The notes beneath the pieces were generated by a model. It searched no databases and had not been told where the DNA came from. It worked only from the letters and a program-made list of their open reading frames with translations. Below, in pieces: positions 1,939 through 27,501 of a DNA stretch of 38,429 bases (within the stretch, counting starts at the first letter, position 1; each line of letters begins with the position of its first letter). The translations under genes and the position numbers were made by a program. This stretch comes from Caulobacter sp. 32-67-35 (GTDB lineage: Bacteria > Pseudomonadota > Alphaproteobacteria > Caulobacterales > Caulobacteraceae): contig NCEV01000063.1 of the NCBI GenBank assembly GCA_002280875.1, positions 1 to 38,429 on the forward strand, given 5' to 3'.

Positions 1939-3417
1939 CTACAGAACGCCCTTGGTGGAGGGAGCCAGGCCGCCGGTCTTGGGGTCGATCTCGACCGCCT
2001 GACGCAGCGCCCGGGCCAGGGCCTTGAACCCGCTCTCGGCGACGTGGTGGGTGTTGTCGCCGTACAGGGTTTCCAGATGGACGCAGGCCCCGCAGTTCAT
2101 GGCGAACGCGTGGTGGAACTCCTTGAAGAGTTCGGTGTCCATCTCGCCGACCTTGGGCCGTTTGAAATCGACCTTCCAGATCAGATAGGGCCGGTTGGAC
2201 AGGTCGATGGCGCAGCGCGTCAGGGTCTCGTCCATCGGGATATAGGCCGCCCCGAAGCGGCGGATGCCCTTGAAGCCGTCCAGCGCCTTGTTCACGGCCA
2301 GACCCAGCACGATGCCGGTGTCTTCCACCGTGTGGTGCATGTCGATGTGCAGGTCGCCCTTGGTCTCGACCTTCAGGTCGAAGCCGCCATGGCGCGCGAA
2401 GCTCTCCAGCATATGGTCGTAGAAACCAATGCCGGTGGAGATCGTCGAGACGCCGGTCCCGTCGAGATCGATCCAGACCCGGATCTGGGTCTCCTTCGTC
2501 TCGCGGACCACTTCAGCGGTGCGGGCCATGACCGGCAGCGGGCGGCCCTGGGACAGGCCAAAGAGGAAACCAGCGGCGTATTGGTCGCCCGCGCCGGTCG
2601 TGTCCACGACTTTTTCCACGGGATAGGCAGAGATTTCGTGAACCTGACCGCCGGCGGCCACCACCGAGCCCCGCTCGCTGCGGGTGACGGCGGCGATGGT
2701 GACCTTTTCTGACAGGGCCTTCACGGCCGCGTCGAAGTCGTCGGTCTCGAACAGGGCGCACACCTCTGCGGCGTTGGCGAAGACGATGTCGCACTGGGTT
2801 TCGATGAAGCCCAGCAGGCCGGCGCGGTGACGCTCGACCACGAAGCTGTCGGACAGCGTGATGGCGATCTGACGACCGGCGCCATGGGCCAGGGCGGCGG
2901 CCTTGGCGAAGGCGCGGCGGGCTTCAGGCGGATCGAACAGATAGCCTTCCAGATAGGAATAGCGCGCCGCCTCGATGATCGCCGGATCGACATCGGCGCT
3001 GGTCAGCTCCACGCAGGCGCCCAGATAGGTGCTCATGGTGCGCTGGGCGTCAGGGGTGACGTTGATCAGGCTCTGGGCCGTGGCGGGGCCCTCGGCCAGC
3101 GACGGGGTGGTGAAGGCGCAGCCGATGGCCTTCATGTCGTGGCGAAATACGTTGCCCAGCTGGTCGTCGGCGACTTTGCCGATGAAGGCGCCCTTGCCGC
3201 CGAAGCTGGCGACGCCGGCCACGGTGTTGGCGGCGCTGCCGCCCGAGGCCTCGATGGCGGCGGCCATCACGTCATACAGGCTGGCCGCCCGCGCCGGATC
3301 GATCAGGGCCATCGAGCCCTTCACCAGACCCTCGCGCGCAAGGAAGGCGTCGTCGCACTGGGCGATGACGTCGACGATGGCGTTACCGATGGCGGCGACG
3401 TCGTAGAGAGCGGTCAT
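1939..3417 (-). CDS. hisB: In-frame fusion of a truncated PfkB-family (adenosine kinase-like) sugar kinase with imidazoleglycerol-phosphate dehydratase HisB
   Basis: One open frame encodes two unrelated enzymes. The C-terminal 196 residues, from the Met codon at 2527-2529 ([22 protein letters not shown]), are a full-length HisB. They contain the metal-binding [10 protein letters not shown] and [10 protein letters not shown] motifs and MDETLTR, and would dehydrate imidazoleglycerol phosphate. The preceding 296 residues are a ribokinase-type kinase that stops right after its catalytic motif and lacks the usual C-terminal end. The start is taken at the ATG at 3417 ([13 protein letters not shown]); a TTG at 3429 would add four residues. 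HisB and this kind of kinase are normally separate proteins, so the fusion either reflects a deletion of the kinase tail plus spacer or is an assembly error. HisB may still be made from its own internal ATG. Confidence 0.85.
2530..3417 (-). pseudogene. PfkB/ribokinase-family kinase (adenosine kinase-like) missing its C-terminal end
   Basis: This is the kinase half of the fused frame. It shows the N-terminal AIGNAIVDV strand, the GSMALID and [16 protein letters not shown] substrate-binding region, and the signature [17 protein letters not shown], whose Asp is the catalytic base. Members of this group are usually about 330 residues. Here the sequence runs only to LSQGRPLPV (residue 296) before HisB begins, so roughly 30 residues that close the nucleotide pocket are absent. 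The start is divergent from the ATP-grasp gene at 3542, and the 124 bases between them should hold both promoters. Nucleoside kinase specificity is inferred from overall resemblance and is not proved. Confidence 0.75.
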
Positions 3418-3541
3418 GGAGATCGGCAAGCCTTTGAAAGAGCAGGGGACGCAAAGCGTTTAAGGGCTGGCAAGTAAAGGAAGCGTGCTGCCAAGGCAAC
3501 GAAGGCTTGCCCCTGGCCCTGCGACATTCTAACCGCCAGGC

Positions 3542-4408
3542 ATGACCTCACCGACCGCTGATATCCTGATCCTCGCGCCGTCTTCGGAAAACGCCGCCTA
3601 TGCCGCTGCGGGCGTACGGTTGTTCGAGCGACTTTCCGCGCCGCTGCGCGCCCGCGGCCTGACCGTGGCGAGCCAGCCCTGGACCGATCCGGTCGATCCC
3701 GAGGCGGCCCGGCTGGTCTTGCCCTTGCTGGCCTGGGGCTATCACCTGCGCCAGCCTGCCTGGTTTGCTCAGCTGGACGCCCTGGAGGCCGCCGGCGTCC
3801 CGGTGATCAATCCGGTTCCGACCCTGCGCTGGAACACCACCAAGACCTATCTGATCGAGTTGGAGAGCAAGGGCGCGCCCGTCGTGCCGACCCATGCCCA
3901 TGATCGCCTGACACCCGAAGCCCTGGCCGCAGCCTTTGACGCCTTTGGCGTCGATGAGCTGGTGGTCAAGCCGCAGATCTCCGGCGGCTCGCAGGACACC
4001 GTGCGGGTCAGGCGTCACGATGATCTGCAGGGTGGCCCGCCCGGCGCGGCCCTGATCCAGCCGTTCCTGCCCGCCGTGGGCGAGGAGGGCGAGCTGTCGC
4101 TGTTCTATTTCGACGGCGTCTTCAGCCATGCGGTCACCAAGGTCGCGGCTAGCGGCGATTTCCGCGTGCAGCCGCAGTTCGGCGGCCTGGTCAGCAGCGT
4201 CGCGCCCGAGCCAGAGGCCCTTCGCGCGGCCCAGATGGTGCTGGAAGCCGCCGACCAGCCTCTGACCTATGCCCGTATCGACCTGATCCGGGGCCTGGAC
4301 CACACACCGCAACTGATGGAGCTGGAGGTGATCGAGCCTGATCTGTTCCTCGAGCATGCCCATGACGGCGGCGCGGCGTTCGCGGCGGCGGTGATGGCCC
4401 GGCTCTAG
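3542..4408 (+). CDS. ATP-grasp family protein (RimK/glutathione synthetase-like), substrate unknown
   Basis: The 288-residue protein has an N-terminal Rossmann-like pre-ATP-grasp part (DILILAPSSENAAY...). A central stretch, NTTKTYLIELESKGAPVVPT, is followed by ELVVKPQISGGSQDTVRV, where the Lys and the glycine-rich loop would bind ATP. ALIQPFLPAV and GELSLFYFDGVFSHAVTKV follow, and the end has ARIDLIR and MELEVIEPDLFLEHA with acidic Mg-binding residues. Such enzymes join a carboxylate to an amine or thiol via an acyl-phosphate. The acceptor cannot be read from the sequence. The ATG at 3542 is the first in frame. The gene is divergent from the his operon and 48 bases upstream of the GST-like gene. 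Confidence 0.75.
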   Translation: MTSPTADILILAPSSENAAYAAAGVRLFERLSAPLRARGLTVASQPWTDPVDPEAARLVLPLLAWGYHLRQPAWFAQLDALEAAGVPVINPVPTLRWNTTKTYLIELESKGAPVVPTHAHDRLTPEALAAAFDAFGVDELVVKPQISGGSQDTVRVRRHDDLQGGPPGAALIQPFLPAVGEEGELSLFYFDGVFSHAVTKVAASGDFRVQPQFGGLVSSVAPEPEALRAAQMVLEAADQPLTYARIDLIRGLDHTPQLMELEVIEPDLFLEHAHDGGAAFAAAVMARL

Positions 4409-4456
4409 CGGATGGCTGGGAGCGACTTATCTAGGTTGTAACCGCAGGAGTTGCTG

Positions 4457-5100
4457 ATGTCCGATCTCTCCGCCTTCCCGATCACGACCCGCTGGCCCGC
4501 CAGGCATCCCGATCGCCTGCAGCTCTATTCGCTGAACACGCCCAACGGCGTGAAGGCCTCCATCATGCTGGAGGAGATCGGCCTGGCCTATGAGCCTCAC
4601 CTGATCGACATTGGCGCGAACGAGACCTGGGGGCCGGAATATCTGTCCCTGAATCCGAATGGCAAGATACCGGCGATCATCGATCCCGATGGTCCGGGGG
4701 GCAAGCCATTGGCCTTGTTCGAGTCCGGCGCGATCCTGCTTTATCTGGCCGAAAAGACCGGCAAGCTGCTGCCCGCCGATCCCGCGCTTCGCTATCAGAC
4801 GATCCAGTGGGTGTTTTTCCAGGTCGGCGGCGTGGGGCCGATGTTCGGGCAGCTGGGCTTTTTCCACAAGTTCGCCGGCAAGGACTATGAGGACAAGCGC
4901 CCGCGCGACCGTTATGTCGCCGAGAGCAAGCGCCTGCTGGGGGTTCTGGACTGCTGGGCATGGTGCGCAATCTGGTCGGCTACTACGATGCGGGCGAGCT
5001 GGTCGACTATGCCAGCCTGAAGTCTGTTCCGGTCTGGCTGGAGCGCTGCCTGGCGCGACCGGCCGTGCAGCGCGGGCTGGAGATTCCGGCGAGGGTTTAG
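4457..5100 (+). pseudogene. Glutathione S-transferase, YfcG/YghU-like (Nu class), internal block missing and frameshifted
   Basis: The N-terminal part is a clean thioredoxin-fold GST domain: LYSLNTPNGVKASIMLEEIGL, SLNPNGKIPAI and LFESGAILLYLAEKTGKLLP, the pattern of disulfide-reductase GSTs such as YfcG. The helical domain proceeds through YVAESKRLLGVLD to about base 4955. The next family segment (usually ...GRDWIMGDDYSIADIA) is absent, and the sequence resumes in another frame with GMVRNLVGYYDAGELVDYASL and ends at the TAG at 5098-5100. By comparison with the family about 20 residues are missing. I chose the ATG at 4457, which has GCAGGAG seven bases upstream, over the TTG at 4451. Both flanks look undamaged. 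Confidence 0.8.
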
Positions 5101-5110
5101 CGTCCAAATA

Positions 5111-5243
5111 TTCCGCTCTCCCCGGCGGAGGCCGGGGCCCAGATCGAACCCCTAGAAGTCGGAGTGTTCGCAAGGCCGCGTGGCGCATCCACCCCAAACG
5201 CTCGGGATGAATCTGGGTCCCGGCCTTCGCCGGGAAGAGCGGA
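5111..5243 (+). repeat. Intergenic inverted repeat (palindromic element) between the GST gene and nth
   Basis: The left arm at 5111-5144 (from TTCCGCTCTCCCCGGCGGAG to CCCAGAT) is the near-perfect reverse complement of the right arm at 5211-5243 (from ATCTGGGTCCCGGCC to AAGAGCGGA). About 66 bases lie between the arms. The wording (CCCGGCGAAGGCCGGGACCCAGAT type) is typical of dispersed intergenic repeats in Caulobacter and relatives, from memory. It separates the end of the GST gene from the convergent end of nth and could fold as a bidirectional terminator-like hairpin. No coding potential is seen. Confidence 0.7.
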
Positions 5244-5251
5244 GTTTGGGG

Positions 5252-5871
5252 TTACGCGCCCAGGAACAGCTCCCGCGAGGGACACAGGTCCGCGATCTTG
5301 CAGACCTCGCACCGGGGCTTGCGCGCCACGCACACATAGCGGCCGTGCAGGATCAGCCAGTGATGGGCCCGGGTCTGATAGGGCCCGGGCACGATCCGCA
5401 TCAGATCGTCCTCGACCGCGTCGGGCGTCTTGCCGGCCGACAGTTTCAGCCGGTGGTCTTGCGGCCCACGCCGGGCAGGCTTTCCAGGTCGGCGCGGTTC
5501 AGCGGCACCTGCCCGCCGTGGCGGTCGATCAGGATCTGGGCCGAGGCGATGACGTTCTTGGCCTTGGTGCGGAACAGGCCGATCGAGGCGATGTAGCGGA
5601 TCAGGCCTTCCTCGCCGAGCGCCAGCATGGCCTCGGGGCTGCCTGCGACCTGGAACAGCGGCCCGGTGGACTTGTTGACCTGAACATCGGTGGCCTGGGC
5701 CGAGAGCGCGACCGCCGTCACCAGCTCATAGGGGTTGTTATAGTTCAGCTCGGTCTTGGGCCGCAGTTCCAGGCTCTCGAAACGATCGAACAGCACCGCC
5801 ACCCGTTCACGCTCGGCTGGCGAGATCCGCTTGGCGGTGCGTTTGCGGACAGGTTTTTTCACAAGAGCCAT
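5252..5871 (-). pseudogene. nth: Endonuclease III (Nth), internal block missing and frameshifted
   Basis: Nth is a DNA glycosylase/AP lyase that removes oxidised pyrimidines. The N-terminal part reads ELNYNNPYELVTAVALSAQATDVQVNKST and goes to LPGVGRKT at about base 5455, which includes the helix-hairpin-helix and the catalytic Lys. In another frame the protein resumes at LKLSAGKTPDAVEDDLM and runs through HHWLILHGRY to an intact iron-sulfur motif (C-X6-C-X2-C-X5-C in CVARKPRCEVCKIADLC) and TAA at 5252-5254. The missing piece, about 28 residues by family comparison, includes the catalytic Asp of the VDTH motif, so the gene as written is dead. The start is placed at the ATG at 5871; an ATG at 5883 would add four residues. 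It is divergent from the DUF2244 gene. Confidence 0.85.
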
Positions 5872-5935
5872 TAACTTGACCATGCCGTGATGCGACCCCC
5901 TCGCCAAGGCGGCGATGCATGCCTAAATCGATGAC

Positions 5936-6442
5936 ATGGCCGGGCCGCTTTACATGGACGCCGTGATCAAGCCCAACCGGTCGCTCAGCCGGCGGGGCCT
6001 TCACGTGGTGCTGGGCGTTGTTCTGGCCTTCAACCTGATCATTGCGCTGTTTGTCCTGGGGGTGGGCGCGCCGCTGGTGCTGCCGTTTCTGGGTCTGGAC
6101 GTGGCGGCGATCTGGCTGGCCATGAACGCCAGTTTCCGGGCCGCCGAGCGTCGCGAACGGGTGCGGGTCACCGCCGAGGCGATCACGGTCAGCCGCGAGG
6201 ACGAAAAAGGCGCTCGTCTGGTCTGGACTTCGCCCACCGCCTTTACCGGCGTGGATGTCGATCAGCCGGGCGAGCATGAGGCGCGGGTTCGGCTGCGCAT
6301 TTATCGCCGCCGCCTGACCGTGGCCCGGGCGCTCAGTCCGCCCGAACGGGTGGAGTTCGCCGACGCCCTGCGGCGCGCCATCCGCGAGGCGCGCGCCGAG
6401 CGCTATGCCGCGCCGGGGGCTGGAGCCGGCGCGCCAGCGTGA
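5936..6442 (+). CDS. DUF2244 family integral membrane protein
   Basis: The 168-residue protein matches the pattern of the DUF2244 family of alphaproteobacterial membrane proteins: YMDAVIKPNRSLSRRGL, then two adjacent hydrophobic helices at roughly residues 22-62 (VVLGVVLAFNLIIALFVLGV and PLVLPFLGLDVAAIWLAM). The start after the helices (FRAAERRERVRVTAEAITV) leads into a beta-rich, basic C-terminal domain. The function of the family is not known to me. The TGA overlaps the GTG start of the next gene (GTGA), so the two are probably co-translated. It is divergent from nth. Confidence 0.75.
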   Translation: MAGPLYMDAVIKPNRSLSRRGLHVVLGVVLAFNLIIALFVLGVGAPLVLPFLGLDVAAIWLAMNASFRAAERRERVRVTAEAITVSREDEKGARLVWTSPTAFTGVDVDQPGEHEARVRLRIYRRRLTVARALSPPERVEFADALRRAIREARAERYAAPGAGAGAPA

Positions 6443-7359
6443 GCAAGAACCGGGCGGACACGCCTGCGGAGGGCGCATACGGTCCCGCCATGGCTCTCGA
6501 CATGCACCCCTCAGAAACCTTCGCCCGTCTGTCCGAGCGCTCGGCGGACTATCACCGCATGGCGGTGGCCCTCGACTGGCTGGCCGAGCGCTGGCAGGAG
6601 CGCCCGTCGCTGGATGAGGCCGCCGGCGCGGTCGGCCTGTCGCCGTTCCACTTCCAGCGGATCTTCACCCGCTGGGCCGGGGTCAGTCCGAAGACCTTTG
6701 TTGCGGCCATCGCCCATGCCGAGGCTCGCAAGTCGCTGGAAGCCGGCGCCAGCGTGCTGGATGCGGCCTATGACGCCGGGCTTTCCGGTCCCTCGCGCCT
6801 GCACGACCTGTTCATCGCCCAGGAAGCCGCCACACCGGGCGAGGTGCGGCGTCGCGGAGCCGGTATGGCCTTGCGGTATGGCTGGGCGCCCACGCCCTTT
6901 GGCAAGGGCCTGTTCGTGATGGCCGAGCGCGGCCTGGCGGGCCTGGCCTTTTCGGACGGCGACGACGAAGCGACCTTCGCCGACATGCACCGCCGCTTCC
7001 CGGCCGCCGACTGGGTCTGCGACGATGAGGCGGCTAGCGCGACGGCGATCCACGCCTTTGCGGGCGGGCAGGGGCCCCTGCCGGTGGTGCTGATCGGCTC
7101 GCCGTTCCACATCCAGGTCTGGAAGGCCCTGCTCCGCATCCCGGTCGGCGCGACCGGCACCTATGGCCAGGTGGCGGAATGGGCCGGTAAGCCCAGGGCC
7201 TACCAGGCGACGGGCGGGGCAATCGGGGCCAATCCGATCTCGCTATTGATCCCCTGCCACCGCGCCATCGCCAAGGACGGGCGGTTGACCGGGTATCACT
7301 GGGGTCTGGCGCGCAAGGCGGCGATGCTGGGGATAGAGGCGGTGGCGGTGGCGAACTAG
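6439..7359 (+). CDS. Ada-like protein: AraC-type DNA-binding domain fused to O6-methylguanine-DNA methyltransferase
   Basis: The 306-residue protein has an AraC helix-turn-helix module at about residues 25-135 (LDEAAGAVGLSPFHFQRIFTRW, then LDAAYDAGLSGPSRLHDLF). It is followed by an alkyltransferase domain with FHIQVWKALLRIPVGATGTY and the active-site motif IPCHR (Cys 273), ending in the family pattern TGYHWGLARKAAML. It would repair O6-alkylguanine by suicidal methyl transfer and probably regulates transcription. Unlike E. coli Ada it has no N-terminal zinc domain with the phosphotriester-accepting Cys. The GTG at 6439 overlaps the previous stop; an ATG at 6490 (MALDMHPSE) is an alternative start. 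The convergent hslU gene ends 58 bases downstream. Confidence 0.9.
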   Translation: MSKNRADTPAEGAYGPAMALDMHPSETFARLSERSADYHRMAVALDWLAERWQERPSLDEAAGAVGLSPFHFQRIFTRWAGVSPKTFVAAIAHAEARKSLEAGASVLDAAYDAGLSGPSRLHDLFIAQEAATPGEVRRRGAGMALRYGWAPTPFGKGLFVMAERGLAGLAFSDGDDEATFADMHRRFPAADWVCDDEAASATAIHAFAGGQGPLPVVLIGSPFHIQVWKALLRIPVGATGTYGQVAEWAGKPRAYQATGGAIGANPISLLIPCHRAIAKDGRLTGYHWGLARKAAMLGIEAVAVAN

Positions 7360-7416
7360 ACCGCGACTCGCCCCCTCCTGACCGCGTAGCAGCCCGGTGG
7401 GGGCAAGTGTTCGCCG

Positions 7417-8712
7417 CTACAGAATAAACCGGCTCAGATCCGAATCCGCCGCCAGGGCGCCGACCTTGTCGGCCACATAGGCCGCGTCGATCGTCACCGT
7501 CTCGCCGCCGCGATCAGCCGCCGAGAAACTGATCTCCTCAACCACCTTTTCCAGGATGGTCTGCAGCCGTCGCGCGCCGATGTTCTCGACCGAATTGTTC
7601 ACTGCCACGGCCGCGTCGGCCAGGGCGTCGATGGCGTCAGGCGTGAAGACCAGGGTCACGCCTTCGGTCAACAGCAGGGCCTGGTGCTGGCGGATCAGGT
7701 TGGCTTCGGGTTCGGTCAGGATGCGGCGCAGGTCATCGCGGCTCAGACCTTTCAGCTCCACCCGGATCGGCAGGCGGCCCTGAAGTTCGGGCAGCAGGTC
7801 GCTGGGCTTGGCCACGTGGAAGGCGCCTGAGGCGATGAACAGGATGTGGTCGGTCTTCACCGGGCCATACTTGGTCGAAACCGTCGTGCCCTCGATCAGG
7901 GGCAGCAGGTCGCGCTGCACGCCCTCGCGCGACACATCGGCCCCGCCACGCTGGGAGGACGAGGCCACCTTGTCGATCTCGTCCAGGAAGACGATGCCGT
8001 GGTTCTCGGCCAGTTCCAGAGCTTCCTGGGTCAGGGCCTCCTGATCCAGCAGCTTGTCGCTTTCCTCGGCGATCAGCGGGGCGTGGGCGCCGGCCACCGT
8101 GGTCTTGTGGGTCTTGGTGCGACCGCCGCCGAACGATTTCATCATCTCGGAAAGGTTTAGCACCGAGCCGCCGGGCTGACCGGGGATCTCGAACATCCCG
8201 CCGCCGCCGGTATCGGCCAGCTGCAGCTCCACTTCCTTGTCGTCCAGCTCGCCGGCCCGCAGCTTCTTGCGGAAGCTTTCGCGGGCGGCGGTCGAGCCGG
8301 GTCCGGTCAGGGCGTCGAGGATGCGCTCCTCAGCGGCCGCCTCGGCGCGGGCCCGCACGCCGGCCCGGCGCTTGTCGCGCACCATGCCCAGGGCGCTTTC
8401 CACCAGGTCGCGGACGATCTGGTCAACGTCGCGGCCCACATAGCCCACCTCGGTGAACTTGGTGGCCTCCACCTTCAGGAACGGGGCCTGGGCCAGCTTG
8501 GCCAGGCGGCGGGCGATCTCGGTCTTGCCGACGCCGGTGGGGCCGATCAGCAGGATGTTCTTGGGGGTGACCTCATCGCGTAGGTCGGCCGGCACGCGAC
8601 GGCGGCGCCAGCGGTTGCGCAGGGCGACGGCGACGGCCTTCTTGGCGTCGGTATGGCCGACGATGAACCGGTCGAGCTCGGAAACGATTTCGCGGGGAGA
8701 GAACTCGGTCAT
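7417..8712 (-). CDS. hslU: ATP-dependent protease ATPase subunit HslU (ClpY)
   Basis: HslU is the AAA+ unfoldase ring that feeds substrates to the HslV peptidase. The 431-residue protein starts [19 protein letters not shown] and carries Walker A GPTGVGKT, the pore motif GYVGRD, Walker [11 protein letters not shown] and the sensor-2 region [20 protein letters not shown]. Its C-terminal tail LSRFIL is the segment that inserts between HslV subunits. The length is normal and the reading frame intact. The ATG overlaps the hslV TAA (TAATG), so hslV-hslU is one operon. As drawn, its partner gene is interrupted. Confidence 0.97.
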
Positions 8713-9127
8713 TACAGGCTTTCAACCGTCAGATTGCCGTTGGTGTAGACGCAGATCTCGGCGGCGATCGCCATCGCCTTGCGGGCGATCTCTTCGGCCG
8801 AAAGATCCAGGTCGATCAGGGCCTTGCCGGCCGCCAGGGCATAGTTGCCGCCCGAGCCGATGGCCGCCACCGAACCCCCGCCGGCGCTTTCGCCGGGCTC
8901 CAGCACGTCGCCCACGCCGGTGACGGTGTAGATGGCGGTGGCGTCGGCCACGCGAAACCGGCCACCACCTTGCCGCCGGCCAGCCTGCGCACCTTGCGGG
9001 CGTTGCCCTTGACGACGGTTGGGCCCATGGAGACCTGGCCGTCTCCGGCGATCACGGTCTGTCCGTTCTTGCGCACCGCCAGAATGGTCGTGCCGTGCCA
9101 GTCTGGGAAGGAATTGCTGTTTTGCAT
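8712..9127 (-). pseudogene. hslV: ATP-dependent protease peptidase subunit HslV (ClpQ), internal block missing and frameshifted
   Basis: The front part, [22 protein letters not shown], contains the catalytic Thr of the HGTT motif after a short propeptide. It continues normally ([24 protein letters not shown]) to KVVAGFA at about base 8957. The family's next segment (FTLIERLE...RTDRYLRRLEA) is gone, and the sequence resumes at [38 protein letters not shown] in a different frame. The C-terminal half is otherwise perfect to NGNLTVESL. About 49 residues are missing by family comparison. The start is taken at the ATG at 9127 rather than the ATG at 9136. It is divergent from the MoeB-like gene 40 bases away. 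Confidence 0.88.
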
Positions 9128-9167
9128 GTCTCGCATGTGGCGAGGCTGGCTGCGGAGATCAAGCGCG

Positions 9168-9905
9168 ATGAGCTTTTCGGACGGCGAGGTCGAACGCTAT
9201 GCCCGCCATCTGGTGCTGCGCGAGGTGGGCGGACCGGGGCAGCAGAAGCTGAAGGCAGCCCGTGTGCTGCTGGTCGGCGCGGGTGGTCTGGGCGCGCCGG
9301 CCGCGCTCTATCTGGCCGCCGCCGGGGTGGGGACGCTGGGCCTGGCCGACCCTGACGCCGTGTCGCTGTCGAACCTGCAGCGGCAGGTGCTGTACCAGAC
9401 CGCCGATGTCGGCCGGTCCAAGGTCGAGGTCGCTTCCGAGCGCCTGACCGCGATCAACCCGCACGTCACCGTCGCAACCCACCCGGTATGGCTGGACGCC
9501 GCCAATGCTCGCGACCTCGTCGCGCGGTATGACCTGGTGCTGGACGGCACAGACGACTTTGCCACCCGCTTTGCCGTCAGCGACGCCTGCCTGGCCGAGG
9601 GCAAGCCCCTGGTCAGCGGCGCCCTGGGCCGCTGGACGGGTCAGGTCGGAGTGTTCCACGGCCAGCCCTGCTATCGCTGCCTGGTGCCCGAGGTTCCGCC
9701 AGACGCCGAGACCTGCGCCCTGGTGGGCGTGGTCGGGGCCCTGGCCGGGGTGATCGGGTCGATGATGGCGCTGGAGGCGGTCAAGCTGATCGTCGGCGCC
9801 GGCGAGCCCCTGAACGGCCGGCTGCTGATCTATGACGCCCTGGCCGCCGAGACCCGCACGGTCCGGATCGGCGCCGATCCGGCTTGCCCCGCCTGCAAAG
9901 CTTGA
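9168..9905 (+). CDS. MoeB/ThiF/HesA family ubiquitin-like protein-activating adenylyltransferase
   Basis: The 245-residue E1-like enzyme would adenylate the C-terminal glycine of a sulfur-carrier protein (MoaD- or ThiS-type) in molybdopterin or thiamine synthesis. It has the nucleotide-binding loop [23 protein letters not shown], the [16 protein letters not shown] motif, [10 protein letters not shown], and two CxxC zinc pairs (CYRC and the C-terminal CPAC). No C-terminal rhodanese domain is present. MoeB and ThiF cannot be told apart here because no moa or thi neighbour is present. The ATG at 9168 is the first Met giving the family's N terminus ([19 protein letters not shown]). Confidence 0.88.
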
Positions 9906-13215: not shown

Positions 13216-14353
13216 ATGCGTCGCGTCGTCGTAACAGGACTGGGTATCGTCTCGTCCATCGGCAACACCGCCAGCGAGGTGCTCGCCTCGCTGCGGGAAG
13301 CCAGGTCCGGCGTGGTCGCCGCGCCCGACTATGCGGAGCTTGGCTTCCGCTGCCAGGTGCACGCCACGGTCAAGCTCGACGCGTGGGAAGCCCTGGTTGA
13401 CCGCCGCGCGGCGCGCTTCCTGGCCCCCGGCACGGCCTACGCCCACATCGCCATGGAACAGGCGATCGCGGATTCCGGTCTCGAAGAGTCTGAGATCTCC
13501 AACGAGCGCACCGGCCTGATCGTCGGCTCCGGCGGTCCGTCCACCCGGGTGATCGTCGAGGCCGCCGCCACGACCAAGGAAAAGGGTCCCAAGCGCATCG
13601 GCCCGTTCGCGGTGCCCAAGGCCATGAGTTCGGGCCCCTCGGCGGTGCTGTCGACCTGGTTCAAGATCCGCGGGATCAACTATTCGATCAGCTCGGCCTG
13701 CGCCACCAGCGCCCACTGCATCGGCGCGGGCGCCGAGCAGATCCAGATGGGCAAGCAGGACATCGTCTTCGCCGGCGGCTGCGAGGAGCTGGACTGGACC
13801 CTGTCCAACCTGTTCGACGCCATGGGCGCGATGAGCAGCAACTTCAACGACCGCCCCACCGTGGCCAGCCGCGCCTACGACAGGGACCGCGACGGCTTCG
13901 TGATCGCCGGCGGGGCAGGCATCGTCGTCCTGGAAGAGTACGAGCACGCCAAGGCGCGCGGCGCCAAGATCTATGGCGAAGTGGTCGGCTACGCCGCCAA
14001 TTCCGACGGCTTCGACATGGTCGCCCCTTCCGGCGAAGGCGCGGCCCGCTGCATGAAGCTGGCCATGGCCGAAGCTGGCAATCGCACCATCGACTATCTG
14101 AACCCGCACGGCACCTCCACGCCGGTGGGCGACAGCAAGGAAATGGGCGCGGTTCGTGAGGTGTTCGGCGACAAGGCCCCGCTGATCTCGTCGACCAAGT
14201 CGCTGACGGGTCACAGCCGAAAACCTGGATCCCGAGTTCGCCGACCTGCCGATCCTGCTGCAACGCTCGGACAAGCCCCTGACCACGGTGATGTCCAACA
14301 GCTTCGGCTTTGGCGGCACCAACGGCACGCTGATCATCAGCAAGGCCGATTGA
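13216..14353 (+). pseudogene. fabB: 3-oxoacyl-ACP synthase I (FabB), internal block missing and frameshifted
   Basis: FabB condenses malonyl-ACP with acyl-ACP and is needed to elongate cis-unsaturated chains. The start ([17 protein letters not shown]) follows GGGGAGATAAGAGGAAG. The catalytic Cys 162 in [12 protein letters not shown], the His in [14 protein letters not shown] and the Lys and His in STKSLTGHS are all present up to about base 14218. Then the LGAAGVQEA... segment is lost. The sequence resumes in another frame at [22 protein letters not shown] and ends with the expected [18 protein letters not shown] at the TGA at 14351-14353. About 27 residues are missing. As the gene pairs with fabA in unsaturated fatty-acid synthesis, a genuine loss would be surprising. 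Confidence 0.9.
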
Positions 14354-14473
14354 TCCCACGCCGCTGGAGGGTTCCAGCGGCGCGCTGACCCTGATAGCTA
14401 AATCCCCACGATGACGGGTGACGGCGGCCCATGCGGGCTGGCCGTCCTATCCCAGAGCACGGAGCGCCAACCC

Positions 14474-19218: not shown

Positions 19219-19221
19219 CGA

Positions 19222-19683: not shown

Positions 19684-19746
19684 GCGGCGGTTCCTGAAGT
19701 CTAGCCGAGCGGCTGTAGCTGATTTGCCCCGAGGGCGGCCAGTCCC

Positions 19747-20961
19747 CTAGGCGAGAGCTTCCGCGATCCTCAGGGCGATGGCGCGCGCCACCTCGTTCTT
19801 GGACGCACGGTCCCAGCGCTCGGTCTTCTTGCGCGTGACCAGCAGTACGGCATTGTCTTCGCCGCCCATGACGCCAGGCTCGGTGACGTCATTGGCGATG
19901 ATCCAGTCGCAGCCCTTGCGCGACAGCTTGGCGCGGGCGTGCATCTCCACATCATTGGTCTCGGCCGCGAAGCCGACCACCAGCTTGGGCCGCATCGGAC
20001 CCGTGGCCGAGACGGCGGCCAGGATGTCGGGGTTTTCAACGAAGGTCAGGGCTGGCGGTCCGCCCTTTTCCTTCTTCAGCTTGGTCCCGAAGGCCTCGTC
20101 CACCCGCCAGTCGGCGACGGCGGCCACGAACACCCCCACATCGGCCGGCAGGGCGGCCTGGCTGGCGGCCAGCATCTGGCGAGCGGTCTCGACATCGATG
20201 CGGGTCACGCCAGGCGGGGTGGGCAGGAAGACCGGGCCGGCGATCAGGGTGACCTCGGCGCCCAGTTGCGCCAGCGCTTCGGCGATCGCAAAGCCCTGCT
20301 TGCCGCTGGAGCGGTTGGTGATGCCCCGAACCGGGTCGATGGGCTCAAAGGTGGGGCCGGCGGTGACCAGCGCGCGCTTGCCGGCCAGGGGTTTGGCGGC
20401 GGGGCCTTCAAGCGCGTCCATGACCGCGGCGAAGATGGTCTCCGGCTCGGCCAGACGCCCGGGGCCAAACTCGCCGCAGGCCATGGCCCCCTCGTCGGGT
20501 CCAACGATCGTGACGCCGTCGGCCTTCAGGGTGGCGATATTGCGCTGGGTGGCCGGGTGCAGCCACATCCGCACGTTCATGGCCGGGGCCATCAGCACTG
20601 GCTTGTCGGTGGCCAGCAGGGTGGTGGAGGCCAGGTCGCCGGCCAGGCCATGGGCGGCCTTGGCGATCAGGTCAGCGGTCGCCGGCGCCACCACCACCAG
20701 GTCGGCCGAGCGCGACAGCTGGATGTGGCCCATCTCGGCCTCGTCGGTCAGGGAGAACAGGTCATCATAGACCCTGTCTTCGGCCAGCGAGCCCAGCGAC
20801 AGCGGCGTCACGAACTCGGCGCCGGCCCGGGTCAGGATCGGGCGCACGCCCACCCCGGCCTTGCGCAGCAGGCGCGTCAGCTCCAGCGCCTTGTAGGCCG
20901 CGATGCCGCCGCCAACGATCAGAAGAACCCGCTTGTCGCTCACGCCGGTTGGTCTCCGCAT
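19747..20961 (-). CDS. coaBC: Bifunctional phosphopantothenoylcysteine decarboxylase/phosphopantothenate-cysteine ligase CoaBC
   Basis: CoaBC makes 4'-phosphopantetheine in CoA synthesis: CoaB ligates cysteine to phosphopantothenate and CoaC decarboxylates the product. The N-terminal flavoprotein half has VLLIVGGGIAAYKALELTRLL, VVAPATADLIAKAAHGLAGDL, PAMNVRMW and the Cys motif GMACGEFGPGRLAEPE. The C-terminal half has ALVTAGPTFEPIDPVRGITNRSSGKQGFAIAEALAQLGAEVTLIAGP and ends with the usual nucleotide-binding lysine region. The 404-residue length from the ATG at 20961 is normal; a GTG at 20943 (MSDKRVLL) is an alternative start. It precedes dut. Confidence 0.93.
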   Translation of the reverse strand: MRRPTGVSDKRVLLIVGGGIAAYKALELTRLLRKAGVGVRPILTRAGAEFVTPLSLGSLAEDRVYDDLFSLTDEAEMGHIQLSRSADLVVVAPATADLIAKAAHGLAGDLASTTLLATDKPVLMAPAMNVRMWLHPATQRNIATLKADGVTIVGPDEGAMACGEFGPGRLAEPETIFAAVMDALEGPAAKPLAGKRALVTAGPTFEPIDPVRGITNRSSGKQGFAIAEALAQLGAEVTLIAGPVFLPTPPGVTRIDVETARQMLAASQAALPADVGVFVAAVADWRVDEAFGTKLKKEKGGPPALTFVENPDILAAVSATGPMRPKLVVGFAAETNDVEMHARAKLSRKGCDWIIANDVTEPGVMGGEDNAVLLVTRKKTERWDRASKNEVARAIALRIAEALA

Positions 20962-21017
20962 TGCTTCCGCCCTTATGGCCCAAGCCTGGCGAACAGACAA
21001 AGGACAAGCTCATGACG

Positions 21018-21027
21018 GACTCGACTC
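21018..21027. promoter_or_regulatory. Two tandem CcrM (GANTC) sites in the coaBC/lipoprotein divergent region
   Basis: GACTC occurs twice back to back (21018-21022 and 21023-21027) in the short gap between the divergent starts of coaBC and the lipoprotein gene. In Caulobacterales GANTC is the target of the cell-cycle methyltransferase CcrM, and GcrA uses methylated sites at promoters. Tandem sites at a promoter are worth noting, but no direct link to either gene is shown. Confidence 0.4.
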
Positions 21028-21082
21028 GCGTTCCGCTTTCGTTCATTAATCGGTAAGGTTGAACTGATGGGGTCAGGGGATC

Positions 21083-21652
21083 ATGAGGTTGAACAGATTT
21101 CACATCGCTGCAAACCGCTGGCGGGGCGCGGCCCTGGCGGCGACAGGCGCGCTGGTCCTGGCGGCCTGCGATGGCGGGGCGTCTGCGGTTCGCGCGCCCA
21201 AGGGCGGCGAGCGCGCCGTGGCCAACACGACGACAGAGGCGCCGCCGCCGTCTGAAACCCGACGCGGTGATCCGCGCGATGCGCCGGTCCGTCTGGTGTC
21301 GGGCAAGCCCTTCTGGGCGGCCAATCGCACCCGCACGGCCGAGGAAAACGCCGAGCGGGCCTTTGAGCGCAATGGCGAGGCCTTTGGCGCCGTCACGGTC
21401 GATGACTATGTCGAGGCGGCGCACAGGTTTGTCGCCAATCCGCCCAAGGGCGCCGAGACCCTCAAGCGCGCCAATGGCGACACCCTGATCTATGATCCGG
21501 GCGGCAACATCTTTGCGGTGGTCTCGCGCGAGGGCGCCCCCCGGGCCCTGTTCAAGCCTGACGATGGCGCAGCCTATTGGGATGTGCAAAAGGCCCGCGA
21601 GAACCGCCGGTCGACGGTCGCCCAGGGCCGAGGCGCGGCCGACAGCGGCTGA
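21083..21652 (+). CDS. Putative lipoprotein of unknown function
   Basis: The 189-residue protein has a signal peptide ending in a lipobox (ALVLAAC, Cys 29), so it should be acylated and tethered to a membrane, probably facing the periplasm. The mature part starts with a low-complexity linker (EAPPPSETRRGDPRD) and is otherwise hydrophilic, with NRTRTAEENAERAFERNGEAFGAVTVDDYVEAAHRFV and ANGDTLIYDPGGNIFAVVSREGAPRALFKP. No known family is recognised. AGGGG just before the ATG is a good ribosome-binding site. The TGA abuts the convergent ubiB stop. Confidence 0.75.
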   Translation: MRLNRFHIAANRWRGAALAATGALVLAACDGGASAVRAPKGGERAVANTTTEAPPPSETRRGDPRDAPVRLVSGKPFWAANRTRTAEENAERAFERNGEAFGAVTVDDYVEAAHRFVANPPKGAETLKRANGDTLIYDPGGNIFAVVSREGAPRALFKPDDGAAYWDVQKARENRRSTVAQGRGAADSG

Positions 21653-23155
21653 TCAGCCAAACAGCAGCGCCCCGGCCGTAAAGGCCAGGGTGGCCACCCC
21701 TGCGCCCGCCGCGAACCAGGCCAGCGGCCGGGGCCTCGGCGCGGCCGCCACGGCTACCGTCGCGGGCGCTTCGGCCAGGCGCGCCATGGCCCGCAGCGCC
21801 TTCAGGGCGTCGTCGGCGAAGTCGCGCACCTTGGCGGCGGGGGACAGCTCGCGGGTGATCCAGCGGCGCACCACCGGATCGGCGGCGGACCAGATGTCGT
21901 GGGCCGGGTCGATCCGACGGGCCACGCCCTCGACCGTCACCATGGTCTTCTGCAACAGCACCAGTTCGGGCCGCAGGGCCATGTCGAACAGGGCGGTGAT
22001 CTCGAACAGCTGGGCCAGCAGCCGGCCCATCGAGATGTCGCGGGCGTCCAGGCCAAACACCGGTTCGCCCACGGCGCGCAGGGCCTGGGCGAAGGCGTCC
22101 ACATCCTGGTGGGCGGGCACATAGCCGGCGTCGAAATGGATGCGGGCCACGCGCGGGTAGTCGCGGTTCAGGAAGCCGTACAGGATCTCGGCCAGATATT
22201 TCCGCTCGCCGGGACCCAGGCGTCCGATGATGCCGTAGTCGACGGCCACCACCCTGGCCGGGGCGGCGACAAACAGGTTGCCCTCATGCAGGTCGGCGTG
22301 GAACAGGCCGTGATCCAGGGCCTGGGCCAGGAAGCCCCGGGTGATGTTCTGCGCCAGGGCCTTGCGGTCCAGACCCGGCAGCGCCAGCGCCTCGGGGTCC
22401 GACAGCGGCTGACCCTCGGCCCAGGCCAGGGTCAGGACCCGCTTGCCGACGCCGTCCCAGACCACGGCCGGGGCGGTCATGAAGGCGTCCTTGGCCATCA
22501 CCTCGCCCAGCTCGGCGCAGCCGGCGGCCTCGAAGCGCAGGTCCATTTCCAGATCCAGCGCCCGGATCACCACCTCGACAAAGTCGCGCGGCTTCAGGCG
22601 ACGGGCCTCGGGAACCAGCCGTTCGGCCAGATCGGCGGCCAGGCGCAGCACGGCGCTGTCCTGGGCGACCTGGCGCTCGATGCCGGGGCGCAGGACCTTC
22701 ACCGCCACCTTGCGGCCGTCCAGCAGCCAGGCTGGATGCGCCTGGGCCAGGGAGGCGGCGGCGACGGGCTCGTCCAGCTGCGAAAACAGGGTCTCGATCG
22801 GCCGGCCCAGATTGCGTTCGATCTCCTCGCGGGCCTGGCTGAGCGGGAAGGGCGGCAGACGATCCTTCAGGCGCGACAGGTCCTCGGCGAACGGCGTGCC
22901 GAAGATGTCGGCCCGGGTCGACAGGAACTGGCCCATCTTGATCGCGGCGGGACCCAGGCCTTCTAGGGCGCCGGCCAGCCGCTGGCCCGGTCGCCCCAGC
23001 TTAGCGCGGGGGCCGGACAACAGCCGCAGCGTCCGCGCCGCCAGCCGCGCCGGCGGCGGCAGCACCGGATCCAGCTCGCGCGGGATCAGGGCGTCGGCCC
23101 GGATCAGCACCCAGCCCGCGCCGACCAGGCGCCAGAACGCGGACATCTGCCCCAT
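21653..23155 (-). CDS. ubiB: UbiB family protein required for ubiquinone biosynthesis
   Basis: UbiB belongs to the ABC1/ADCK atypical kinase family and supports ubiquinone synthesis at the membrane. The 500-residue protein has the KxGQ motif (AAIKMGQFLSTRADIFG), the Ala-rich nucleotide loop (AAASLAQAH in place of the usual P-loop), FHADLHEGNLFV and AVDYGIIGRL as metal-binding Asp motif. Hydrophobic segments at the very C terminus (LAWFAAGAGVATLAFTAGALLFG) anchor it. It starts three bases after the ubiE stop, so ubiE-ubiB form one transcript; the two proteins act in the same pathway. Confidence 0.95.
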   Translation of the reverse strand: MGQMSAFWRLVGAGWVLIRADALIPRELDPVLPPPARLAARTLRLLSGPRAKLGRPGQRLAGALEGLGPAAIKMGQFLSTRADIFGTPFAEDLSRLKDRLPPFPLSQAREEIERNLGRPIETLFSQLDEPVAAASLAQAHPAWLLDGRKVAVKVLRPGIERQVAQDSAVLRLAADLAERLVPEARRLKPRDFVEVVIRALDLEMDLRFEAAGCAELGEVMAKDAFMTAPAVVWDGVGKRVLTLAWAEGQPLSDPEALALPGLDRKALAQNITRGFLAQALDHGLFHADLHEGNLFVAAPARVVAVDYGIIGRLGPGERKYLAEILYGFLNRDYPRVARIHFDAGYVPAHQDVDAFAQALRAVGEPVFGLDARDISMGRLLAQLFEITALFDMALRPELVLLQKTMVTVEGVARRIDPAHDIWSAADPVVRRWITRELSPAAKVRDFADDALKALRAMARLAEAPATVAVAAAPRPRPLAWFAAGAGVATLAFTAGALLFG

Positions 23156-23158
23156 GGA

Positions 23159-23917
23159 CTAGACGGCCCAGCCCTGGTGCATCGCCGCGACGCCGCCCGT
23201 GAAGTTGCTGATGGTCACCCGCCTGAAGCCGGCATTTTCCATCATCGTCGCGAAAGTGCGCTGGTCAGGAAAGCGCCGGATGCTCTCGACCAGGTACTGA
23301 TAGGCCTCGCGATCCTTGGCCACCCACTCGCCGACCTGGGGGATGACCTTGAAGCTGTAGGCGTCATAGGCTTTGGCCAGCGCCTCGGTGACCGGCCGCG
23401 AAAACTCCAGGCAGAGGAAGCGGCCGCCGGGTTTAAGCACCCGCCGCGCCTCGCGCAGGGCCGCGTCGATGTCGGTGACATTGCGAATGCCGAACGAGAT
23501 CACATAGGCGTCGGCATAGGCGTCGGGCAGCGGCAGGCGCTGGGCGTCGCCCACGGTCCAGGTGATTTCCGGCTCGCCGCCCTTCTCGATGCCGGCGGCG
23601 ATCATCTCGGCATTGTAGTCGATGATGTTGATCATCGCGTCGGGGCCGCCCCGGCGCTCCTGGGCGCGGCGGGCCATCTTCGCGAAGCGGCGGGCCATGT
23701 CGCCGGTGCCGCCGGCGCAGTCGATGATCACCTCGCCCGGCTGCGGGTTCAGGCGCGCGGCGACGGCGTCCTTCCACAGCCGGTGGACGCCCCCGCTCAT
23801 CAGGTCGTTCATCAGGTCGTAGTTCTTGGCGACTCTATCGAAGACGCCTCGCACCAGGCCGGCCTTCACCGAAGGATCGACGTCCTTGAAACCGAATGTG
23901 GCGGCAGGCTTGCTCAT
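23159..23917 (-). CDS. ubiE: Demethylmenaquinone/2-methoxy-6-polyprenyl-1,4-benzoquinol methyltransferase UbiE
   Basis: UbiE performs the C-methylation step of ubiquinone synthesis with S-adenosylmethionine. The 252-residue class I methyltransferase has the family-signature [31 protein letters not shown] and the SAM loop [17 protein letters not shown]. It continues with [60 protein letters not shown] and ends [14 protein letters not shown], all typical of UbiE. It is the first gene of the ubiE-ubiB operon and divergent from mutM, whose start is about 80 bases away. Confidence 0.97.
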
Positions 23918-23998
23918 GACGTCTATCGACCAGGCTCTCTATATGCTGGATCGCTCTTAGACCGCCGACCGCGTCGCGTCATCACCTTGAGGCCGCCC

Positions 23999-24862
23999 TT
24001 GCCTGAATTGCCCGAAGTCGAGACCGTCCGGCGCGGCCTGGAGCCCGTCCTGAGCGGCGCCCGCCTGAGCCGCGTGCGCGCCAACCGGCCCGACCTGCGG
24101 TTCCCGCTACCCGAGGGTTTCGTCCAGCGGCTGACGGGGGCGAAGATCCTGCGGCTGGATCGCCGCGCCAAATATCTGCTGGCCCCGCTGGATCGTGGCG
24201 ACACCCTGGTGATGCATCTGGGCATGACCGGGCGCTTCGAGATCGCCGCCCCGGAAGGCACGATACGCCCCGGCGCCTTCGCCCGCGAGGTCAAGCCCGA
24301 CGACAAGCACGCCCACGTGGTCTTCGAGACCGAAGCGGGCGCGGTGGTCACCTATCACGACCCCCGCCGCTTCGGGTTCATGGACCTGATCGCCACCGAC
24401 CGCGTCGACCGCCATCCGTGGTTCGCGACCATGGGTCCCGAGCCACTGGGCGAGGGGTTCAACCCCCAGACCCTGATCAAGGCCTTCGCGGGTCGCAAGC
24501 AAGGCCCCAAGACCCTGCTGCTCGACCAGAAGACCGTCGCGGGCCTGGGCAATATCTATGTGTGCGAGGCCCTGCACCGGGCGGGCATCTCGCCATTCAA
24601 GCCCTCGGGGATGATCGCCGGCAAGCGGCTGGGACCGCTGACCACGATCATCAAGGAGGTCCTGGCCGAGGCCGTCGAGGTGGGCGGCTCCACCCTCAAG
24701 GACTTCGCCGCCGCCGACGGGGCGCTGGGCTATTTCCAGCACCGGTTCCGGGTTTACGACCGCGAGGGGGAGCCGTGTCCGACGTCGGGGTGTGGGGGCG
24801 TGATCGCGCGGGAGGTTCAGGCCGGGCGGTCGACGTTCTTTTGTCCGGTGTGTCAGGTGTGA
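23999..24862 (+). CDS. mutM: Formamidopyrimidine-DNA glycosylase MutM (Fpg)
   Basis: MutM excises 8-oxoguanine and formamidopyrimidines and nicks the AP site. The catalytic N terminus after Met removal is Pro, and the sequence PELPEVETVRRGLEP is classical. The catalytic Lys region (ILRLDRRAKYLLAPL), MHLGMTGRF, QKTVAGLGNIYVCEALHRAGISP and the C-terminal zinc finger (CPTSGCGGVIAREVQAGRSTFFCPVC) are all present. The start is a TTG at 23999: the ATGs upstream in the open frame lie in sequence unlike the family, and only this codon puts Pro at position 2. The resulting 287 residues match the family. It is divergent from ubiE. Confidence 0.95.
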   Translation: MPELPEVETVRRGLEPVLSGARLSRVRANRPDLRFPLPEGFVQRLTGAKILRLDRRAKYLLAPLDRGDTLVMHLGMTGRFEIAAPEGTIRPGAFAREVKPDDKHAHVVFETEAGAVVTYHDPRRFGFMDLIATDRVDRHPWFATMGPEPLGEGFNPQTLIKAFAGRKQGPKTLLLDQKTVAGLGNIYVCEALHRAGISPFKPSGMIAGKRLGPLTTIIKEVLAEAVEVGGSTLKDFAAADGALGYFQHRFRVYDREGEPCPTSGCGGVIAREVQAGRSTFFCPVCQV

Positions 24863-24877
24863 GGGAGCGTTTCGAGT

Positions 24878-25480
24878 TCAGGCGAGCCTTGGTGTCGGAT
24901 AGCCCAGATAGGCCCGGCTGAGCCGCACCAGCTCATCCTCGAACTCCTGGCTCAACAGGAAGTCGGCGCCTTCCAGGACGGCGGCCCGCATGGCCCCTTG
25001 CACGGACCGAGCCAGAACAAAGGCTTGAACCCGCGTCAGAGGACGGCCCTGCGCGTCGGTCAGGCCGCTTTCCGCCGCCGCGAACCTTGCGGCCAGTTGG
25101 CTATGATCTGCCTGCGCCAGCAGGGTTGTCATGGCGATCCGTCGCGCCCGACTGCGACCAGCGAAGGCTCCAAGAAACGCGCGTATCATCGCCCTGTCCT
25201 TGGCCAGACCCCGTTCGGCTCCCTCCAGCACCAACGTGATCGCCTGCCGGTGCGCTTCTGTCTCTCGTAGAGCCAGGGCCAGCAGGATCGCCTGCTTGTC
25301 CGGAAAGTAGCGATAGAGCGTGCCGATGCTCACCCCCGCGCGCCCAGCCACCGCATTGGTGTTGAATCCGGCTTCCCCTTCGGCCTCCAGAACCTGAGCT
25401 GCAGCCTCCAGAACGAAGTCAACGGAGGCTCGGGCGCGCCGTTGCCGGGGAATTTTGCGAACGGTTTCAATAGCGCTCAC
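24878..25480 (-). CDS. TetR family transcriptional regulator
   Basis: The 200-residue protein has an N-terminal helix-turn-helix (FNTNAVAGRAGVSIGTLYRYFPDKQAILLALAL) and a helical C-terminal ligand domain with no recognised subtype (RARRIAMTTLLAQADHSQLAARF, ARSVQGAMRAAVLEG). It is divergent from the thioesterase-like gene at 25577, with a 96-base gap that holds a candidate operator at 25507-25522, so it probably controls itself and that gene. The end is convergent with mutM (15-base gap). Confidence 0.85.
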   Translation of the reverse strand: MSAIETVRKIPRQRRARASVDFVLEAAAQVLEAEGEAGFNTNAVAGRAGVSIGTLYRYFPDKQAILLALALRETEAHRQAITLVLEGAERGLAKDRAMIRAFLGAFAGRSRARRIAMTTLLAQADHSQLAARFAAAESGLTDAQGRPLTRVQAFVLARSVQGAMRAAVLEGADFLLSQEFEDELVRLSRAYLGYPTPRLA

Positions 25481-25506
25481 CTAAGGCCCCCCACGACGCC
25501 GTCTTC

Positions 25507-25522
25507 TTGACTAGTCGAGTAA
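25507..25522. promoter_or_regulatory. Candidate operator between tetR and the thioesterase gene
   Basis: TTGACT-AGTC-GAGTAA contains the perfect palindrome GACTAGTC and partly symmetric flanks (ACT...AGT). It sits about 27 bases upstream of the tetR start and 55 bases before the thioesterase. A TetR-type dimer binding here could control both genes. The symmetry is imperfect. Confidence 0.35.
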
Positions 25523-25576
25523 CAGAGGCCGCCCACCAACCCTACCCTTCGCCACGCAACTTGGCGGGAGAACAGG

Positions 25577-26047
25577 ATGACGTGGGCGACCGATCGACTC
25601 GACGCCTTGAAAGCGGGGACCGCAACCCCGCCGCCGATCGTTGAGACCCTGAAGCTGGGCCTGATCGACGACTGGGGCGAAGGCTGGGTGCGCAAGTCTT
25701 GGAGTCCGAGCGCGGATCTCGCCACCGCCGACGGCTCGCTGTTCGGCGGCTATCTGGCGGCGCTGGCTGACCAGGTCCTGGCCTTTGCGGCCATGACGGT
25801 GGTTCCGCACGATCGGTTCTACCGGACGGTAAATCTGCAGGTGAACTTCCTGAAGGTGGGGCGCAGCCACCCCCTCGTCATCGAGGCGCGCATTGTGGCC
25901 CAGACTCGGCAGCTGATTACCGCACGCGCCGAGTTTCGTCGGGACGATGGGGCTTTGATTGCCGACGCCACCGCCCAGCAGATCCTGATGGCCTTCGACC
26001 ATTGGCCGGCGGAGCAGGCGGCCATCGAGGCTTTGGGTGGGCGGTAG
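25577..26047 (+). CDS. PaaI-type hot-dog thioesterase family protein
   Basis: The 156-residue protein resembles the PaaI/YbgC-like single hot-dog thioesterases. GSLFGGYLAALADQVLAFAAMTVVP is the active-site helix region with the usual GG and acidic residue, followed by YRTVNLQVNFLKVGRSHPLVIEARIVAQTRQLITARAEFRRDDGALIADATAQQILM, the standard beta-strand order. It probably hydrolyses an acyl-CoA or similar thioester; the substrate is unknown. It is divergent from a TetR gene. It is followed by a repeat-rich region and not by another gene. Confidence 0.75.
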   Translation: MTWATDRLDALKAGTATPPPIVETLKLGLIDDWGEGWVRKSWSPSADLATADGSLFGGYLAALADQVLAFAAMTVVPHDRFYRTVNLQVNFLKVGRSHPLVIEARIVAQTRQLITARAEFRRDDGALIADATAQQILMAFDHWPAEQAAIEALGGR

Positions 26048-26115
26048 ATGTCTGTTTGAGCGATGTCGAAGTCTTGGCCTCGCTCTCCAAGAAACCGGAC
26101 GCCCCGCGTCCCGCT

Positions 26116-26265
26116 CATCCTTAAATCTCTTGGAGGCTGCAGCGTGCCGGCGTGGAAAGGTCTGTCAAGGACCGCCTCCGGCGGCCGCGTCGCGGCGACG
26201 CGAAAGCGTCGTCCTTGAGAGACCTTTCCACGCCGGCGATCGTCTCGCCGTGAGATTTAAGGATG
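26116..26265. repeat. Long intergenic inverted repeat 1
   Basis: The arms, from CATCCTTAAATCTC and GCCGGCGTGGAAAGGTCT through CAAGGAC on the left, match in reverse order GTCCTTGAGAGACCTTTCCACGCCGGC and GAGATTTAAGGATG on the right, with a few mismatches. The unit could fold as one hairpin of about 54 bases per arm around a GC-rich loop (26173-26210) that is itself palindromic (GCCTCCGGCGGC, GCGTCG...CGACGC). No coding potential is obvious. Confidence 0.8.
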
Positions 26266-26299
26266 GCTCCCTTCGGCGCGAAGGCGGCGGGGCGCCGTT

Positions 26300-26425
26300 T
26301 AAGTCCTCCCCCCAGCGGGGGAGGCGGCCGGAGGCCGGTGGGGGAAGACCGCAATGAGTCAACGGCGACTTCCCCCTCCGTCGGCCCGAAGGGGCCGACA
26401 CCTCCCCCGCCAGGGGGAGGACTTA
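26300..26425. repeat. Long intergenic inverted repeat 2
   Basis: TAAGTCCTCCCCCCAGCGGG at the left pairs with CCTCCCCCGCCAGGGGGAGG and ACTTA at the right, with an inner GGGGAAG/CTTCCCC arm pair (GGTGGGGGAAGACC against GACTTCCCCCTCC). The outer arms are preserved, so the unit is one nested palindrome. The CCTCCCCC wording is a common intergenic element in Caulobacterales, from memory. It lies 34 bases from repeat 1. Confidence 0.75.
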
Positions 26426-26560
26426 TGAGGATACGCCGCGCTCAATCCCCGTTCTTTCCCGAACAAACCCAAGCTCAATCAACCGCTTGTAAAAATCTTC
26501 ATCGCGCCAATCCTCGGCGCTGAAACCGCCCGCATACTCACTCTCACCTGACAGCACGGG
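26423..26560 (-). pseudogene. Possible C-terminal remnant of an unrecognised protein
   Basis: The minus-strand frame ends GFSAEDWRDEDFYKRLIELGFVRERTGIERGVSS, which has the amphipathic, acidic-basic look of a genuine protein tail. Upstream, the open frame (back to 26860) has proline- and arginine-rich text with no domain and no plausible start with a ribosome-binding site. The stop lies within the right arm of repeat 2. It may be a leftover of a gene whose 5' part was lost, or simply a chance frame. Confidence 0.25.
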
Positions 26561-26926
26561 AAGGGCGTCCGGCCGGCGACCAGCGACGGCTGTCAGGGGT
26601 GATCGAGCGGGGTCAGTCGGAGTCGCGAGAGCGGGGGCCGGCAGGCTTAAAGGAGGACAGGGGACGTAAACCTGTCCATCGGGGATCTGCCAGGGTCCCC
26701 GCCCGTCCGAAGGTTCGCTCCGGGTCCTCCGGGAGAGCCGAGGCTGCAGCTCAACTATCCCATCATCCGGGCGAGGCCCGGACGCTCCGCGACCCTTCCC
26801 ACCCCCATCGCAGCGAAAGCGCGAGGCTATGAGCCCATGTCCGCTGGTCGTCACGGCCAAGGCGCCGCTGAGTTCCCTTCGCCGCGACGCGCTCTATAAA
26901 GCGAGCGTCACAAGGAGAGACCCGCG

Positions 26927-27501
26927 ATGGCCGACTACCAGACCCTGATCGTCGAGACCGCCCCGGACGGCGCCGCTGGCGTCGTGCTGATCCGGCTCAA
27001 CCGGCCCGAGGCGCTCAATGCGCTGAACGCGGCGCTGTTGGGCGAGCTGGCCCAGGCGTTGGGCCAGGCCCAGGCCGACGACGGCGTGGGCTGTATCGTC
27101 CTGACCGGCTCGGCCAAGGCCTTTGCGGCGGGGGCCGACATCAAGGAGATGTCGGACAAGACCTATGCGGAGATGTTCAAGGCCGACTTCTTTACCGCCG
27201 GGGCGCGCGCCATCGAGCAGTGCCGCAAGCCGATCATTGCCGCCGTGTCGGGCTACGCCCTGGGCGGGGGGCCGACATGCTGCTGGCCGAGGTGCTGGCC
27301 ATGGCGGCCAAGATCGCCAGCCAGTCGCCCCTGGCCGTGGCCATGAACAAGGAGCTGGTCAACGCCGCCTATGAGACGACCCTGACCACGGGCGTGGCCC
27401 TGGAGCGACGCCTGTTCCACTCGCTGTTCGCCTTCGAGGATCAGAAGGAGGGGATGGCGGCCTTCGTCGAGAAGCGCAAACCCGACTTCAAGGGGCGCTG
27501 A
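26927..27501 (+). pseudogene. Enoyl-CoA hydratase/isomerase (crotonase family), internal block missing and frameshifted
   Basis: The front half is a clean crotonase: VVLIRLNRPEALNALNAALLGEL, CIVLTGSAKAFAAGADIKEM (oxyanion-hole and CoA-binding region) and KPIIAAVSGYALGGG at about base 27272. The next family part (CELA..., FGQPEI.LG..PG.GGTQRL, which carries the two catalytic Glu residues) is missing. The reading resumes in another frame at ADMLLAEVLAMAAKIASQSPLAVAMNKELVNAAYETTL and ends FAFEDQKEGMAAFVEKRKPDFKGR. About 70 residues are missing by family comparison. The start has AAGGAG nine bases upstream. It would normally act in beta-oxidation of acyl-CoAs. Confidence 0.88.

Follow-up and report, generated by a model that had tools for sequence, protein, structure and literature searches.

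The six clean junctions in the window, which is the whole 38,429-base contig C17 of a Caulobacter draft genome, are most likely a data error rather than a biological feature. We consider it very likely that they are assembly artefacts, in which the contig ends on the two sides of a short unsequenced hole were fused, in most cases with no Ns between them. The parent draft comprises 4.10 Mb in 163 contigs, with a completeness of 96.3 and a contamination of 1.8.

Six junctions with short losses in the window

The junctions were compared by blastn against the syntenic stretches of four same-genus genomes and against a second set of 12 loci taken from the listed matches of the kinase gene, giving 16 relatives tried overall. 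Among the matches listed, the kinase gene is closest to L039 (protein identity of 95%), which is labelled as alphaproteobacterial only, and the next nine are from Caulobacter; 12 of the 20 relatives given belong to the same genus as the window genome. The named matches of the kinase gene thus put the window within Caulobacter or beside it. Against up to 16 related stretches, all six junctions lie where the first-pass annotation had called them (Table 1). The length comparison with relatives that it had proposed as a check revealed a sharp block missing at each of the six sites, counting only relatives aligned on both sides of a junction and differences of -50 to 400 bases.

Table 1. Junctions and adjoining genes in the window, with the length missing relative to the genomes aligned on both sides
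Feature	Position	Strand	Description	Missing length (relatives)
hisB	1939..2529	-	intact including ATG; family scan	
PfkB-family kinase	2530..3417	-	without C-terminus; family scan	
Junction 1	2529..2530		~110 bases gone between the kinase 3' part and hisB; in-frame apparent fusion	103-139 bases, spacer included (15/15)
Junction 2	4950..4951		within GST-like gene (4457-5100, +); out of frame	61 bases (3/3)
Junction 3	5455..5456		within nth (5252-5871, -); out of frame	73 bases (15/15)
Junction 4	8951..8952		within hslV (8712-9127, -); out of frame	148 bases (10/11; exception L042)
Junction 5	14218..14219		within fabB, beta-ketoacyl-ACP synthase I (13216-14353, +); out of frame	80 bases (4/4)
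Junction 6	27270..27271		within echA, enoyl-CoA hydratase (26927-27501, +); out of frame	217 bases (2/2)
Possible seventh loss	7353..7389		spacer before hslU; weaker since outside genes	68 and 76 bases (two relatives)

The five losses within genes are constant in length over the compared relatives, with the hslV of L042 as the single exception. As the earlier reading had it, all five leave their genes out of frame, none of the missing lengths being a whole number of codons, and the coding sequence on either side is intact: 11 junction-side fragments were accepted by Pfam and family scans of the flanking pieces, with no stop inside. These scans assign both halves of hslV (HslV) and of echA (enoyl-CoA hydratase), and the upstream halves of the GST-like gene (GST N-terminal domain), nth (endonuclease III) and fabB (beta-ketoacyl-ACP synthase I); what lies downstream of the junction in GST (49 aa) and in fabB (44 aa) matched no Pfam family. 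The further claim that each gene lacks one internal block holds for these five genes and fails for the first site, where the loss lies at the end of the kinase gene.

At this first site, the loss takes the kinase C-terminus, the stop codon and the spacer ahead of hisB, whose ATG is kept and whose match extends to position 196 of the 196 of the HisB family model. The kinase and hisB consequently run as one open frame of 496 aa from a TTG at 3429, an apparent fusion produced by a loss at a gene end rather than inside a gene. The spread in missing length at this junction is consistent with a loss that spans the spacer as well as the kinase end.

Two larger length differences were seen beside these genes. 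Between hslU and hslV (window position 8712), 7 of the 16 relatives carry ~870-940 additional bases, which are absent from the window and from three of the same-genus genomes (G006, G012 and G001); this is probably natural gene content and not an assembly fault. Between fabB and the next gene (14349-14461), four same-genus relatives have ~0.9-1.9 kb more, of varying length, a difference that is likely natural gene content as well, though it may be a larger assembly loss.

Loss rate in the window compared to its relatives

Losses of 30-500 bases were counted by one script if evident against two or more further genomes. The window has six in 32,499 bases (2529, 5455, 8951, 14218, 27270 and the spacer at 7353), compared to one in 117,365 bases for the equivalent region of the four same-genus relatives (G006, 0 in 29,716; G012, 1 in 33,994; G001, 0 in 26,776; G008, 0 in 26,879). 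Junction 4950 was reached only by the second set of relatives and hence stands outside this count. Over the first 13 kb, comparison with the 12 named loci gave four losses in 12,823 bases for the window (2529, 4950, 5455 and 8951) against 12 raw losses in 192,022 bases for the loci around the kinase gene. Of the latter, 11 vary in size between the comparison genomes, as spacers do, and the remaining one is 36 bases long, or 12 codons. The losses in the window are more than expected by chance.

Similar losses on other contigs

From the same assembly, 20 further stretches were taken, of which four, all short contigs, consist of Ns throughout, 16 were tagged, 10 were comparable and seven had two relatives. 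In these seven, the assembly shows three losses in 47,656 bases, compared to one in 95,129 bases for the relatives. The three comprise 103-104 bases in a quinone-oxidoreductase-like gene, 35 bases in a yebC-like gene and 88-89 bases at rpsL-rpsG; outside the window, gene names are our reading of the relatives' open frames, with the exception of S12. Losses therefore recur across unrelated genes and contigs, as an artefact predicts, with a contrast to the relatives that is strong in the window and smaller elsewhere. Additional losses were seen against a single relative, for example in a gene read as metH and, with 103 bases, on contig C90, whereas 20 kb sampled from a long contig contained no loss common to the relatives that align there. 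Loss density varies across the assembly.

The rpsL-rpsG loss (contig C137, near 6772) removes the 3' end of rpsL together with the start codon of the gene read as rpsG. S12 was found once in the assembly, where it covers model positions 2-92 of 110, in comparison to positions 2-109 in all five relatives. Indispensable genes are thus among those hit, in that the sole S12 copy found is truncated and the rpsG start is gone. An organism with a truncated rpsL as its only copy and an rpsG without a start would hardly be viable.

TonB-receptor genes were considered as a further measure of the loss rate and dropped as too coarse: among the matches listed, at least nine rows cover nearly the full model span, one gene is split internally and several are cut off where a contig ends. 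The split gene, a TonB-dependent receptor on contig C139 near 22180, lies in two pieces covering model positions 1-58 and 76-868, and is probably another such join.

An under-sized gap and probable joins without Ns

On contig C1, a run of 37 Ns (L119:15110-15146) covers the beginning of an mnmE-like gene; past the run, this gene picks up at the position of codon 18 in G003. The 37 places would need to hold ~49 bases of mnmE in addition to the end of the preceding gene; G003 has 127 bases at this site, and G001 has ~107 bases more than the assembly's own sequence. As the missing mnmE start exceeds the 37 places, the draft contains under-sized gaps, one of which is this run. A letter-for-letter mask would have kept the length, and we therefore read the run as an assembly gap given too few Ns. 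No other N run occurs in the ~650 kb of readable sequence from the assembly, which indicates that joins without Ns are the rule in this draft; such joins are less usual for scaffolders. In the exceptional relative at hslV, L042 (Caulobacter BIN40; 3366-3501), a run of 10 Ns within hslV lies beside ~126 bases that do not align to a relative's hslV, and this break is a separate assembly error of L042.

Sequence at the junctions and the missing parts

Junction sequences were analyzed at 12 of the 18 listed sites. The set excludes the N gap, site 7384 in a spacer, and the sites c2390, g10224, g15234 and g15812, the last four since their flanks align loosely; three of the 12 (b2012, f16654 and g5719) rest on a single relative, and the b2012 loss, with 129 bases a multiple of three, could be natural. 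Microhomology, measured on the relative's sequence and thus approximate, amounts to 0-1 base at all of the 12 sites but one, where it reaches three bases. The junctions therefore lack the direct repeats of a repeat-mediated deletion, either by slippage or by recombination, and this origin is not supported. Over the same 12 sites, the missing stretches are without bias in GC and folding (mean z of -0.20 and -0.13, respectively); the segment missing at 2529 folds strongly, exceeded by only ~1% of 200 background windows. Sequence-dependent dropout was accordingly rejected, and holes left by thin coverage fit better than hard sequence.

That the missing part of a split gene lies at another place in the genome was also considered and found unsupported for hslV and echA, for which the assembly, with some of its short contigs given as N, was searched. 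For the middle part missing from hslV the assembly contains no other match, nor does any other proteasome-family match occur at E 0.001. The missing part of echA gave only short or distant matches in the assembly (107 bases at 73%, 76 at 75%, 72 at 74% and 38 at 87%).

Origin of the junctions

We propose that the reads would leave short holes of ~35-220 bases, possibly owing to thin coverage, and that the contigs on either side would be linked, presumably by read pairs. The linked contigs would then be placed directly next to each other, as a rule without intervening Ns; in the sampled part, one join has an N run, and this is shorter than the hole. Genes spanning a hole would thus appear cleanly deleted and frameshifted. 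A consensus procedure that drops stretches without coverage would be an alternative step of equal outcome, as a CLC-type "update contigs" step does. The losses on other contigs, the blunt junctions, the lengths indifferent to frame, the damaged single-copy rpsL and the too-short N gap all favor this reading, which the first-pass annotation had already named as the simplest: segments dropped in consensus building or gap joining. Nothing here supports its less likely reading of a real or programmed deletion. Counting against the artefact are the rarity of N runs in the draft, the smaller contrast outside the window, the uneven density of losses and the 12 raw losses of the other relatives around the kinase gene.

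If the organism itself carried the deletions, short blunt deletions would have accumulated in a recent burst, as early gene decay. Clean junctions flanked by open fragments are what very recent deletions would leave, and end joining could produce the blunt ends. However, the sole rpsL is truncated, the gene read as rpsG has no start codon, and hslV and fabB are affected as well; moreover, similar losses occur on several contigs, yet genome size and completeness (4.1 Mb and 96%) are normal for the genus. This explanation is therefore scarcely credible. We regard as equally far-fetched a living Caulobacter lineage with frequent short blunt deletions throughout its genome that tolerates truncated S12, HslV and FabB. 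Somewhat less remote, though still very unlikely, are deletions in the sequenced molecules instead of the cell, where jumps during PCR or amplification gave deleted reads that reached the consensus. Polymerase jumps could plausibly produce losses of these sizes, and the strong folding of the segment at 2529 would suit one. A jumping polymerase is expected to move between short direct repeats, whereas the microhomology is 0-1 base at all but one of the 12 sites and the sites as a set are biased in neither folding nor GC; in addition, the jump product would need to dominate the reads at every site.

Significance and comparison with known assembly errors

Joined contig ends offer a caution, in that a draft that is 96% complete and 1.8% contaminated can hide joins without Ns, which give rise to false pseudogenes, to false fusions such as kinase-HisB and to essential genes that only seem lost. 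Quality checks limited to N gaps would overlook them. A narrow literature search, covering portions of the papers concerned, returned none that describes joins losing bases without Ns; PMC5053417 and PMC4216380 have no bearing on the matter.

In its passages on local errors, the work of Chen et al. 2020 (PMC7111523) reports that local assembly errors left uncorrected, together with gaps where scaffolds were joined, are a source of incomplete or incorrect protein-coding genes in public databases, and that not even one read supports such errors. The junctions described here resemble these errors of metagenome-assembled genomes, as far as those passages go, in that faults of assembly or scaffolding yield broken protein-coding genes. 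They differ in form: the errors covered there are N gaps, Ns placed between flanks that in fact overlap, and unsupported consensus (PMC7111523), whereas most joins in the present draft are without Ns and have lost bases. The present junctions were judged by the assembled sequence, in a Caulobacter draft that may be a metagenome bin or an isolate.
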